From IMG/VR virus record IMGVR_UViG_3300029319_000641, positions 1 through 20,814 of that record: a DNA stretch of 20,814 nucleotides; one strand, written 5' to 3'. The stretch comes from a virus. Position 1 is the first letter of the stretch. Every line of letters starts with the position of its first letter. The position numbers and the translations under genes are program-made. This document shows positions 81 to 7,438 of the stretch, in pieces. The notes beneath the pieces were generated by a model, which worked only from the letters and a program-made list of their open reading frames with translations, had not been told where the DNA came from and made no database searches.

Positions 81-97
81 ATAATTATGTACGAAAT

Positions 98-206
98 TAT
101 CTACTAGTTATATAGTAGATAGTGATGGGGAGCCGAAAGGTCCATCCGTCGACAGTACCCACAGACGTAAACAAGGGGAGAAAATGTCTAAGGTTATACT
201 TGGGTA
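98..206 (+). promoter_or_regulatory. Structured 5' leader of the capsid gene (three hairpins, possible pseudoknot)
   Basis: The 174-base gap before the capsid gene holds strong inverted repeats. Hairpin 1: TATCTACTA (98-106) pairs perfectly with 113-121 around a 6-base loop and can extend by a G-U and an A-U pair. Hairpin 2: GATGG (124-128) pairs with CCATC (142-146), then a 3-base bulge, then GCC/GGT closing a GAAA tetraloop (135-138). Hairpin 3: CGTC (147-150) pairs with GACG (164-167). In its loop, TACCCA (156-161) is exactly complementary to TGGGTA (201-206), so a pseudoknot could form. I recognise no named RNA class. The likely role is control of capsid translation or mRNA stability or processing. 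The pairings are seen; the function is inferred. Confidence 0.5.
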
Positions 207-207
207 G
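184..207 (+). CDS. Possible 7-codon leader peptide (MSKVILG)
   Basis: ATG at 184 opens a 7-codon frame ending at TAG 205-207. A purine-rich AAGGGGAG (173-180) lies just upstream and could serve as a ribosome binding site, although the spacing from its GGAG core is short. The last codons and stop overlap TGGGTA (201-206), the strand that could pair with the loop of leader hairpin 3, so a translating ribosome would break that pairing. The ORF is short enough to arise by chance; it could also be an unused relic start. Confidence 0.28.
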   Translation: MSKVILG

Positions 208-254
208 CGTTTTCGATTAACTATAAAAACAATGACTAACGGAGGCAAAATCGT

Positions 255-1139
255 ATGTCAACTCAAATAACTACTGCTTTTGTAAACCAGTACAGAGCTA
301 ATGTTGAGCACCTTTTACAACAAAAAGGTTCAAAACTTAGACCTTTTGTAAGGGTTGAATCACAAAGCAGCGAGTTTGAATACTACGATCGTATTGGATC
401 TGTTGATGCGGTAGAAGTTACTTCTAGACATTCTGACACTCCTCTAATCTCAACTCCACATGATAGAAGACAAGTATCATTAAGAGATTTTGATTGGGCG
501 GATATGATTGACAGAACTGACAGAATCAGACTTTTAATCGACCCAGCATCTCCATACGCACAAAACGCCGCTTGGGCACTTGGCAGAAAAATGGATGATA
601 TTATCATCGAAGCAGCATTTGGAACAGCTAAATCAGGTAAAACTGGTGGAACGTCTGTTGCTCATGATGCAGCAAGCCAAATCGCTGTGAACTACGTAGA
701 GTCAGGAGGTGCGACTAACTCGGGCCTTACAATTGCAAAACTTAGAAAAGCGAAACAGTTATTGGACGCGAATGAGACTGATCCTTCAGATCCAAGATAC
801 ATTATCGTAACTTCTAAGCAAGTCACTGATCTGTTACAAACTACTGAAGTAACTAGCTCTGATTTTAACTCAATCAAAGCTCTTGTTGCTGGTGAAGTTA
901 ACACGTTCATGGGCTTTCAATTCGTAAGAACTGAAAGAGTTGCGACTGACGCTTCTTCTCACAGAAGAGTAATTGCTTATGCTAAAAGTGGTCTTCTTAT
1001 GGCTGTTGGCGCTGATATCAATGTTGATATTGGACCAAGAAGAGACAAAAGAAACTCTACCCAAGTATATTGTTCTGCTTCTTTCGGGGCAACTCGAATG
1101 GAAGAGGGCAAAGTGTTAGAAATTAAGTGTGCAGAATAA
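255..1139 (+). CDS. Major capsid protein (HK97-fold type, not the T7 gp10 sequence type)
   Basis: This 294-residue protein is most likely the shell subunit of the head. It starts at ATG 255 after a strong GGAGG site (241-245). The N-terminus (STQITTAFVNQYRANVEHLL) and the central segments GRKMDDIIIEAAFGTA (about 110-125) and TIAKLRKAKQLLDANE have the look of short capsid proteins in non-T7 podoviruses. It does not look like T7 gp10 and is shorter (gp10A is about 345 residues). Context agrees: a likely scaffold tail upstream, a small head protein downstream, then a terminator and the gp11/gp12 tail genes. GC and codon choice look richer than in the tail genes, as expected for a very highly expressed gene. 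Assignment rests on remembered family resemblance and position. Confidence 0.85.
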   Translation: MSTQITTAFVNQYRANVEHLLQQKGSKLRPFVRVESQSSEFEYYDRIGSVDAVEVTSRHSDTPLISTPHDRRQVSLRDFDWADMIDRTDRIRLLIDPASPYAQNAAWALGRKMDDIIIEAAFGTAKSGKTGGTSVAHDAASQIAVNYVESGGATNSGLTIAKLRKAKQLLDANETDPSDPRYIIVTSKQVTDLLQTTEVTSSDFNSIKALVAGEVNTFMGFQFVRTERVATDASSHRRVIAYAKSGLLMAVGADINVDIGPRRDKRNSTQVYCSASFGATRMEEGKVLEIKCAE

Positions 1140-1650: not shown

Positions 1651-1679
1651 AAGGGGCTTAGCTATTGCGGCCCCTTTAG
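1651..1679 (+). terminator. Rho-independent-like terminator after the head genes
   Basis: AAGGGGC (1651-1657) pairs perfectly with GCCCCTT (1670-1676) across a 12-base loop, followed by a short T run and AT-rich DNA. It lies between the head genes and the tail adaptor, the place of the T-phi terminator after gene 10 in T7. The T tract is only three bases, so it may be leaky, which would give much capsid mRNA and less tail mRNA. Confidence 0.65.
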
Positions 1680-4771: not shown

Positions 4772-5234
4772 AGCAGTTGTAGCATTAGCATTCGCAGGAA
4801 CAGCCATACAAGCGTATGGAGCTTATCAACAAGGTAAGAATCAAAAAAGATTAAATGAATATAATGCTAAAGTAGCAGAGCAGAATGCACAGATAGCACA
4901 AGATAAAGCTGACTATGATAAAGAGCAGTTAAGAAGAAGAATTAGAAAAGTTAAAGGTTCTCAAGTTGTTGCTTTATCAAAAGCTGGAGTTGATGCAACT
5001 GAAGGTACGGCTATTGATCTATTTGAAGAGTTAGCTATAATGGGAGAGCAAGATTTATTAATGATTCAATATAACGCTGATCTTAAAAAACGTGGTTATG
5101 AAGTAGAAGCTGCAACAGCTAGATTTACTGGAGCTGCTGCTTATCAAGCTGGTAAGATGAGAGCTGCCGGAACATTATTAACTGGAGGAAGTGAAGGATA
5201 TAAATATGGAACTGAAACAGGAGTATTTGGATAA
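4764..5234 (+). CDS. Internal virion protein, T7 gp14-like
   Basis: A 156-residue protein (T7 gp14 is 196) overlapping the previous gene by eight bases and sharing one base with the next start (TAATG at 5232-5236). It begins with a short hydrophobic stretch, AVVALAFAGTAIQAYGAY (4-21). A long charged helix region with NEYNAKVAEQNAQIAQDKAD (about 31-50) and a Gly/Ala-rich tail follow. This pattern is typical of small ejection proteins that form a pore in the host outer membrane after leaving the virion. Order (GNAT-like gene, this gene, then a large helical protein) is the T7 order 13-14-15. Pattern and synteny agree; the sequence itself is only weakly like T7. Confidence 0.72.
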   Translation: MSKAVVALAFAGTAIQAYGAYQQGKNQKRLNEYNAKVAEQNAQIAQDKADYDKEQLRRRIRKVKGSQVVALSKAGVDATEGTAIDLFEELAIMGEQDLLMIQYNADLKKRGYEVEAATARFTGAAAYQAGKMRAAGTLLTGGSEGYKYGTETGVFG

Positions 5235-7438
5235 TGGTTAAAATTCCTACATACGATACACAAATACAAAAAAGAACGTCTACAGGAGAAGGAGCACAAG
5301 GTTTTTCTGGAGGTCAAATTGCAGTTGCGTCAGATACAGGTTTACAAGACTTTGGAAGAGGCGTAAGGAACTTAGCTAGCAATCTTAAAACAATCGAAGT
5401 TAATAGACAAAAGAAAGAAGCAACTTTATGGGCTTCTAGTAGCTATGAAAAAGTTTATAAAGAATATAGCGAGTGGGAAAAAGAAGCTGAAATAAACTAT
5501 GAGGAAGCAGGAGCAAAAGGTCATACAGAAAAAGCTTTAAAAAAATTCCAAGAAATATCAGATAAGTATTTAGCAGAATCTCCTAATCAATATGCAACTC
5601 AGGAATGGAAGCTTAAGATGAATCAATTTAAAATGCAAGTATTTAAAGATGCAACAGGGTTCGAAGCTGCAGAAACATTAGAGCATCAAAAAGATCAATT
5701 ACAAGAAACAGTTGAGAGTATAGCAATAAGAGCTGCAGAAAATCCTGAAGCATGGAAAGCAGGTCAATTTCAAGCTACAGTAGAACAAATAATAAATGGT
5801 CTTGCTGATAACAAAGACACTGAAAATATTGAAGGATACAATAATTTATGGAGTAAGAGTAAATTAAAAAATGCTAAAGAACAAGCTCTTGCTTATATTG
5901 CTGAGACAATGATTCAATCAGTAATTGACGAAGGAGACACTGCAAAAATTAATCAAGTTAAAGATATGTTTGACAAGGGAAGATTTAAACAAGTATTAAC
6001 TGCAGAGAAACACCAAGCTTTAAGAAATAAACTTTTTGGATTAAGCGGAGCCATTAATAAAGCAGAAAGAAAAAAATTTGAAATTAAGTTAGAAGATAAT
6101 GTAGTTAATATAGCAGAGAACGGGGTCCCTACTCATGAGGTTACTGAAGAAGAGTTTAATCATTGGTACGGAAAAAATAATGCTCAATGGGTTGAATATC
6201 AAAGGCAGGTTAAAAAATATGAGCAAGTTTATATAGGTGCATCAGCTATGGCAACTATGACACCTAACGGCATGGCTGAATATATAGATAATTTACCTAC
6301 CGTTACTGCTGATCAAAAAGAAATTAAAACATTAATGCAAGAGCACGCTCAAAAGATGATTAAATTAATGGATGACGATCCTATTCAATTTGCTTCTAGA
6401 TACAGAAAAGATATATTTAATAAAATACAGTCAGATGATAAAGCAACTAAACAACAAGGGTTATTTGAATTAGAGCAGATGCAGATAGGATTTGGAAAAC
6501 AACCTTCTGAAGTAATGTTCTTAGGAGATACTGAAAGAGAAAGACTTGTTACATACTTCTCAGATCCTGCTAACTCTGATGCTCAGAAAATTGGATTCAT
6601 GATACAGGAGATGAAAGAAGAGTATGGACAATACTTTGATGACGTTATGGCAGAACTAGTATTATCAGGAAAACTAGACCCGACTCTCTCTGCAGCAATG
6701 ATGTATGCAGATGATAATGATTTTGGCTTATTATTTCAATCAGCAAGAATACCTGTAGATACAAGTAATCTAAAAGAAAATACTATGACTGATATTAATA
6801 TAGGTATGCAAGCTAAATTTGAAGACATAAGAAAAGCTATTACTGAAACAAATCCAGAAGCTATTCCAATGCTAGATGGCTGGCAAAATCTTATTGAAAA
6901 AAGAGCTTTATTACTAGCTAAAAATATGGATGCTAACCAAGCAGTTGATCAAGCCTATCAACAATTTGTTAGCGATAAGTTTCACATTGGAGCAGATTTC
7001 CTTGTGCCAAAACAAATTAAAGATGGGAATAAAATTATTCCTTTAGGAGACTATGGCATAAATCAATTTCAAGAAGTACTAAACAATTATGTAAAAGGTA
7101 TATCAAATTCTGAAGAAGCAAATTTAAGTATTTTACTCGCTGGAGATGCTGATCTAGATGCCGCTGGTACTAATGACGGAAGTTATAAAACAATTCAAAG
7201 AAAAGTATTAGAAGCAAATACTAGATGGAGAATGACAGCTGACGGAAAGGGAGTAGAACTTGTATGGAACTTTCAAGAAAAAGGACACTACCCAGTTTAT
7301 ATTATGGATAATGGAAAAGAAAGAAAAATATCGTTTGATTATTTAACGCTTGTTGAAAAGATAGATCAGCAAGGAATAGAAAAAACAGAGCCACAAAAAC
7401 CTTTAACTTTTGGCGAAGTATTAATGCAGATTGACTAA
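5234..7438 (+). CDS. Internal virion protein, T7 gp15-like
   Basis: A 734-residue protein, close to the 747 of T7 gp15, a member of the internal core that is ejected and spans the periplasm as part of the DNA conduit. The sequence is strongly helical and charged throughout, rich in Lys, Glu, Gln and Ala, with no membrane segment or signal peptide. The N-terminus (KIPTYDTQIQKRTSTGEGAQ, from residue 3) resembles the start of many marine gp15-like proteins. It shares one base with both neighbours (TAATG at each junction), so translation of 14-, 15- and 16-like proteins is probably coupled. No lytic transglycosylase Glu motif is visible. Assignment is by length, composition and position. Confidence 0.72.
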   Translation: MVKIPTYDTQIQKRTSTGEGAQGFSGGQIAVASDTGLQDFGRGVRNLASNLKTIEVNRQKKEATLWASSSYEKVYKEYSEWEKEAEINYEEAGAKGHTEKALKKFQEISDKYLAESPNQYATQEWKLKMNQFKMQVFKDATGFEAAETLEHQKDQLQETVESIAIRAAENPEAWKAGQFQATVEQIINGLADNKDTENIEGYNNLWSKSKLKNAKEQALAYIAETMIQSVIDEGDTAKINQVKDMFDKGRFKQVLTAEKHQALRNKLFGLSGAINKAERKKFEIKLEDNVVNIAENGVPTHEVTEEEFNHWYGKNNAQWVEYQRQVKKYEQVYIGASAMATMTPNGMAEYIDNLPTVTADQKEIKTLMQEHAQKMIKLMDDDPIQFASRYRKDIFNKIQSDDKATKQQGLFELEQMQIGFGKQPSEVMFLGDTERERLVTYFSDPANSDAQKIGFMIQEMKEEYGQYFDDVMAELVLSGKLDPTLSAAMMYADDNDFGLLFQSARIPVDTSNLKENTMTDINIGMQAKFEDIRKAITETNPEAIPMLDGWQNLIEKRALLLAKNMDANQAVDQAYQQFVSDKFHIGADFLVPKQIKDGNKIIPLGDYGINQFQEVLNNYVKGISNSEEANLSILLAGDADLDAAGTNDGSYKTIQRKVLEANTRWRMTADGKGVELVWNFQEKGHYPVYIMDNGKERKISFDYLTLVEKIDQQGIEKTEPQKPLTFGEVLMQID

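Follow-up and report, generated by a model that had tools for sequence, protein, structure and literature searches.

Introduction

In phage T7, the leader of gene 10 has its own promoter, a 5' stem-loop and a UUAACUUU-like stretch before the Shine-Dalgarno sequence, and it is followed by the capsid gene and a terminator. In phage HK022, the putRNAs (putL and putR) consist of two stem-loops whose internal bulges matter, according to the part of the published account drawn on here (PMC9378689). For Escherichia coli, 5'-terminal stem-loops that stabilise the ompA and papA mRNAs are known from works cited in PMC3997798. A structured cis-acting leader is familiar as a kind of RNA; the class considered below, with its permuted double module, has not been described as far as could be seen. 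By comparative sequence analysis, this class is a conserved element in the leader of a viral capsid gene, in which two stem-loops with the same small internal loop are joined by a predicted pseudoknot.

The leader that contains the element resembles that of T7 gene 10 in its layout, including a TAACT-type stretch. T7 differs in having its own RNA polymerase, and its sequence, in which promoter phi10 was found, gives no match to R1, our covariance model of the element. The likeness to HK022 put lies in two stem-loops that stand soon after a host-type promoter, in a phage using host RNA polymerase; unlike the element, put occurs on early operons in two copies, and a pseudoknot between the stems is not described in the part of the source used here (PMC9378689). 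This put-like layout, two stem-loops soon after a predicted promoter, is seen in the window group and in phages ZP6, K227 and VP5. Neither the module finder nor inspection by eye revealed a wobble-YAR module in the HK022 putL and putR regions, which were located by their mutual similarity, and R1 found nothing there, its sole HK022 match (E 0.106) lying elsewhere; descent from a common ancestor with put is therefore unsupported. With the ompA and papA leaders the element would share a structure at or near the 5' end of the message, and the passages drawn on mention neither a duplicated wobble-bulge module nor a pseudoknot (PMC3997798).

The initial annotation of this DNA had recognised no known RNA class in the leader, and the searches agree. 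Rfam 15 (4227 families) gave no match at gathering score for the window or for 20 relatives, the best weak match on the sense strand being sucC with 14.8 bits against a threshold of 50. No description of the element was found in the open-access literature, a silence that proves nothing for literature elsewhere.

Results

The window, that is, the whole 20.8-kb virus contig that was analysed (20,814 nucleotides), holds only the 3' end of the upstream gene, followed by the leader and a structural module; the promoter, RNA and capsid-gene features of the window given below lie on the plus strand, as does the hairpin at 1651..1676. The major capsid protein gene (phrog_3437, E 3.2e-87) occupies 255..1139, and its Shine-Dalgarno sequence GGAGG, read directly from the sequence, lies at 241..245. 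Two genes of the structural module, at 1152-1637 and 5234-7438, are without a PHROG match.

The three hairpins previously placed at 98-121, 124-146 and 147-167, with a GAAA tetraloop, are present in the leader. Stem-loop A (124..146), delineated by covariation and folding, comprises an outer helix (124-128/142-146), an inner helix (133-134/139-140) and the GAAA loop, and between the helices lies an internal loop made of the wobble G129.U141 and the bulge 130-132, which reads GAG here and UAG in most relatives. It is followed by P2 (147..167, helix 147-150/164-167), the hairpin of an H-type pseudoknot, which is invariant in the window group and co-varies in the L080 group. The 5' strand of the pseudoknot (158..160, CCC in the loop) pairs with its 3' strand (176..178, GGG) across the A-rich UAAACAAG, as indicated by covariation of the two strands. 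Stem-loop B (180..214) has an outer helix 180-186/208-214 and an inner helix 188-192/199-203, with a folding z of -3.51 for 178-216, and its internal loop, composed of the wobble U187.G204 and the bulge U205-A206-G207, is the loop of A with the strand order reversed. We infer the register of the B bulge from relatives; the folding program instead pairs U187 with G207 and bulges 204-206.

The Shine-Dalgarno sequence is not taken up by the conserved helices, and no expression platform was seen by eye in the folds. Nor does the module fit a kink-turn, in which tandem sheared G.A pairs follow a 3-nt bulge: here the neighbours of the bulge are standard pairs and a wobble, G.U or A.C. A reading frame at 184-207 (MSKVILG), preceded by AAGGGGAG, was considered as a leader peptide and dropped, its start codon being TTG in L027 and ACG in L029.

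Folding energy is weak evidence for this structure, because the z-scores are only modest and the core is less remarkable than its surroundings: the stretch singled out by the initial annotation, 98-206, does beat most shuffled sequences (z -2.45; 2 of 200 shuffles as good), 81-254 has a z of -1.99, and the RNA core 122-216 fares less well (z -1.43; 17 of 200 as good). Compensatory changes were sought in the leaders of capsid homologues from IMG/VR, which were divergent enough to test pairing. Because the structures come from the very sequences that MAFFT aligned, slide controls favour them; shuffles, and a tree-based null that preserves the tree and how often each column has changed, are the better controls. 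In the window group, for which 24 of 26 distinct cores were aligned, 99.6% of the cells were paired in the helices tested (both helices of A, P2, the pseudoknot, and the outer helix of B with two inner pairs), while slid versions of the structure gave 30-49%. Seven of the 23 pairs had changed on both sides, with 35 double-change cells against 9.7 in shuffles (reached in 0 of 500), and the pseudoknot pair 159-177 occurs as CG in 12 sequences, GC in 10 and AU in 2.

The L080 group, aligned from 41 of 53 distinct sequences after close copies had been removed by eye, follows the same plan with an additional hairpin. Double changes affect 14 of its 26 pairs, in 137 cells against 41.6 in shuffles (0 of 500). 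In the pseudoknot of this group, pair 62-74 is CG in 13, GC in 12, UA in 7 and AU in 3 sequences and unpaired in 6, and a neighbouring pair of the helix is unpaired in 18 of the 41. Under the tree-based null, the covariation scores of both structures and of both pseudoknots were reached in 0 of 1000 simulations each.

Covariation upholds the earlier proposal that the capsid leader forms a compact structured RNA including a pseudoknot, except as to the pseudoknot partner. TACCCA (156-161) and TGGGTA (201-206), which had been put forward as the pairing strands, are complementary; in the relatives no double change was found between them, one pair is broken in 12 of 24 sequences and another in 7 of 24, and the helix does not rise above the nulls (score reached in 500 of 500 shuffles and in 153 of 1000 tree-based simulations), although the folding program uses it in longer stretches. 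TGGGTA belongs to stem-loop 180-214, which had been missed, the annotated range 98-206 ending inside B.

A sigma70-type promoter is predicted immediately upstream of the element, with a -35-like hexamer TGTACG at 88..93, a 17-bp spacer and a -10 hexamer TATAGT at 111..116. Across 22 aligned relatives, T.TAC of the former, the letters that matter in a -35, is invariant, as are T111, A112 and T116 of the latter. From promoter geometry, transcription of the window leader would start at about 122-123, some 7 nt past the -10, with stem A beginning at 124; starts and promoters alike are predictions rather than mapped positions. ZP6 and L104 have a perfect TTGACA-17-TATAAT. The predicted start adjoins stem A in the window group, L104 and K227, and about 1-5 unpaired nucleotides would precede stem A in the window group, ZP6, L104 and K227; with a start 7 nt past the -10, this number would be about 22 in VP5 and about 14 in L054. 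No recognisable promoter was found upstream of the element in the L080 group.

Hairpin 1 (98..121, pairing 98-106 with 113-121), which had been taken for a hairpin of the leader RNA, does co-vary: 8 of 9 pairs show double changes, in 20 cells where shuffles give 5.5 (0 of 500), and the covariation score was reached in 0 of 1000 simulations under the tree-based null; it is lost in L018. Since it contains the -10, most of it would lie outside the transcript of this promoter. Its pairs include U.G, which would suit RNA read through from upstream, and the repeat might also serve as a DNA operator. Inverted repeats that enclose the -10 of the capsid promoter were seen in the window (98-121), L444 (1046-1099), L054, L081 and VP5; in these distant phages the arm sequences differ while complementarity is kept, and the arms are long in VP5 and L054. 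Repeats of comparable strength near A occur in 11 of 98 leaders and in 10 of 980 shuffles. Such repeats around the -10 may be operators, RNase III sites or insulating hairpins in read-through RNA.

The module common to A and B consists of a helix, a wobble pair (G.U or A.C), a bulge of 3 nt whose central base is A, and a second helix, the bulge lying on the 5' strand in A and on the 3' strand in B, so that the loop of B is that of A closed from the opposite end; in Alteromonas phage ZP6 both copies are of the A type. Among modules called in 171 dereplicated leaders, the wobble is G.U in 58 and A.C in 36 cases for A, and G.U in 64 and A.C in 16 for B, and the commonest bulges are UAG, CAA and UAA; these counts are descriptive and constitute no test, as the finder admits only G.U or A.C wobbles and YAR bulges. 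In a rule-free search, A.C was the commonest mismatch (36 of 85 A and 34 of 69 B, against 9 of 87 shuffled B), an excess that is the only readable result of this search, given that it counts G.U as a pair and mixes registers. An anchored search with a position limit overlooked many A stems of the L080 group, and its rows for that group do not enter the counts. G.U and protonated A.C wobbles are near-isosteric, and their exchange therefore looks like the conservation of one geometry, in a module whose exact register we infer. The wobbles of A and B are both G.U in 42 leaders, both A.C in 10 and mixed in 6; a strict match was thus discarded, and a required contact between A and B is not argued. 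AUAC variants are common in the L077 group and were recognised, partly by eye, in Vibrio phage 1.182.O (where the finder calls B only) and Yersinia phage YeP5 (where it calls nothing). The A of the window is itself missed by the finder, the first base of its bulge being G.

The finder was shaped on loci L001-L097. In a set of 107 dereplicated leaders that includes these training data, it called A in 62, B in 57 and the pair in 42, against 36, 16 and 0 in 2140 shuffles; fixed beforehand and applied to 64 new dereplicated leaders, it called A in 32, B in 23 and both in 16, against 24, 14 and 0 in 1280 shuffles. Neither module was called in 30 of the 107 and 25 of the 64 leaders. The distance from the end of B to the start codon has a median of 40 nt (quartiles 37-42, n=80), within the 25-55 nt that the finder accepts.

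R1, which was built from the L080 group alone, was run over 81 loci totalling 455563 bases and returned 25 matches at E <= 1. Of these, 23 are in the sense orientation, with their ends no more than 150 nt from the capsid start; L097 and L326 are the exceptions to this placement, and two of the 23, L297 and L302, are short partial matches. The best matches outside the L080 group are L051 (5.6e-9) and L195, of HTVC010P type (8.5e-6); at this threshold R1 misses the window itself and most of the 81 loci. In the whole record of Vibrio cholerae phage VP5, the single R1 match (E 0.0025) falls on the capsid leader, where both modules are clear. Among 26 loci from bacterial or archaeal assemblies, R1 matches L458 (9e-11) and L459 (0.0047) at the capsid leader, and a relaxed finder detects further A-type modules, including some in prophages of Burkholderia and Cupriavidus. 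The element precedes capsid genes of SAR11, Alteromonas and V. cholerae phages, and the module is kept between the window and VP5 at a capsid identity of 22%. Nothing recognisable was present in some relatives, for example Vibrio phage 1.138.O, Acinetobacter phage TPWB-05 and Dunaliella virus SI2.

Across whole genomes of the capsid family, the finder located a capsid-leader pair in 7 of 10 (ZP6, G001, G003, G004, G010, G013 and G014) and none in HTVC010P, G006 and G015, where A or B falls outside its rules. Scattered weak pairs occur in all 10 genomes and also in HK022, lone modules often arise by chance (12-38 per strand per genome), and the clear copy is one per genome, before the capsid gene. 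A lone B-type module on the minus strand of G003, a relative of L018, from 32086, just inside a gene start and about 0.9 kb upstream of the capsid leader, was dropped, such chance modules being common. In L073 and L414 the element stands 100-150 nt from the capsid start, and L414 has an extra small reading frame (1297-1498) apparently between the two. In L080-group leaders (for example L107, 2360-2463), the element extends into the 3' end of the upstream reading frame, where the sequence is constrained as RNA and as protein alike.

The interval from B to the start codon contains TAACT in 57 of 173 leaders, against 12.9 expected. TAACT or TAACTT is enriched from B to the Shine-Dalgarno sequence, mostly 20-36 nt before the start codon. 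A terminator-like hairpin lies within 1.1 kb 3' of the capsid gene at 66 of 138 loci, against 10 of 138 for the interior of the capsid gene, a somewhat shorter stretch used as control; many of the terminators past the capsid gene are canonical and are located 30-50 or 500-600 nt downstream. Canonical intrinsic terminators follow the capsid gene or the next gene, before the tail genes, for example in L082, L208, L291 and L444. A sequence reading of the window shows a GC-rich, terminator-like hairpin with a poor U tract at 1651..1676, 3' of the second gene of the capsid module; it was not called by the terminator scans, which count the window as lacking a terminator within 1.1 kb, and relatives have canonical terminators near the matching place. 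Pfam model PF00940 detected a T7-type single-subunit RNA polymerase in T7 and in none of 28 other phage records, some of which may be fragments; these phages therefore probably use host polymerase. The unit of promoter, capsid gene and terminator resembles that of T7, yet it is found in phages without a T7-type polymerase.

Discussion

The structure of the element and its novelty are well supported, and its mechanism is a proposal from comparative data. We propose, tentatively and with somewhat less than even confidence, that it is a cis-acting structured RNA forming the 5' leader of a separate capsid transcript, which stabilises the message and at whose modules a partner docks. The unit would consist of a promoter, the leader, the capsid gene with or without the next gene, and often a terminator. 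Comparison places the stem-loops shortly after a sigma70-type promoter, wherever such a promoter can be recognised, and the Shine-Dalgarno sequence in the stretch that follows them. The transcript would start at or a few bases from stem A; its 5' end would therefore be tied up in structure and the message long-lived, and the ribosome site would stay open. A single conserved partner, probably a host factor, would dock at the two copies of the module and reinforce this stability. Such a partner is suggested because a simple effect on the message leaves unexplained why two copies of a loop outlast the capsid sequence. Covariation, the performance of the finder on held-out leaders, the placement of R1 matches, the persistence of the module at 22% capsid identity, the predicted starts, the spacing of B, the terminators and TAACT are all consistent with this leader, and the stabilising 5' stem-loops of E. 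coli provide a precedent. Against it can be set that plain stabilisers need no conserved bulge, as well as the spacing in VP5 and L054, the distance in L073 and L414, the missing promoter and the overlap in the L080 group, and the leaders in which nothing was called.

An effect on message stability or translation is our first guess, and a put-like effect on host RNA polymerase the second. In the latter case, by analogy with put, whose antitermination acts by way of the zinc-binding domain of the polymerase, the nascent two-stem leader would bind host RNA polymerase and keep it from pausing or terminating within the late operon, with no phage protein involved, which we consider fairly unlikely. 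The anatomy and setting shared with HK022 put, the absence of a PF00940 polymerase from the 28 non-T7 records, the conservation of the element across hosts from SAR11 to Vibrio and the terminators downstream would all suit such a role; it is weakened by putL and putR matching neither module nor R1, and by the single clear copy before the capsid gene rather than at the head of the late operon. Moreover, an antiterminator right before a terminator-ended capsid unit would partly defeat the terminator. It can also be imagined, as a slightly more doubtful idea, that the element represents a second, unrelated and far more widespread put-like class, in which the nascent capsid leader, in phages without a T7-type polymerase, uses two copies of the permuted wobble-bulge module to bind the RNA polymerase of the host, or some other universal machine of the host, and reprogrammes it without a phage protein. 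Host RNA polymerase is the boldest candidate for the partner; by analogy it would fit the setting. The tie between element and capsid gene, the occurrence of one clear copy per genome and the terminator shortly downstream count against it.

The link to this particular capsid gene, together with two recognition-like copies of a module that would suit a dimer or oligomer, could also point to an autogenous operator, at which unassembled capsid or scaffold protein binds both modules and holds capsid synthesis down. The scaffold of phage P22 offers a precedent for feedback on assembly proteins. This explanation appears still less probable, the module being nearly unchanged while the capsid drifts to about 20% identity (20-25%), and a protein bound to B, which ends about 40 nt from the start codon, would not directly cover the ribosome site.

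Although the two-module layout with a pseudoknot would resemble an aptamer, a metabolite or ion riboswitch is highly improbable: no expression platform was seen, the Shine-Dalgarno sequence is free of conserved helices, capsid genes would be an odd target and Rfam gave no match. Ordinary hairpins, arising as a by-product of the promoter palindrome and compact gaps, would agree with a folding energy that is only moderately unusual, and are already contradicted by covariation and held-out recurrence to the point of being barely credible.

For the proposed capsid leader, the breadth of distribution is of consequence. HTVC010P-type phages rank among the most abundant marine phages, and V. cholerae phages with barely similar capsid proteins have the same RNA before their capsid genes. 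The RNA is more conserved than the protein that it precedes, which points to an ancient, shared partner. The element is also found in culturable phages (ZP6, VP5 and K227), and its role is therefore directly testable.
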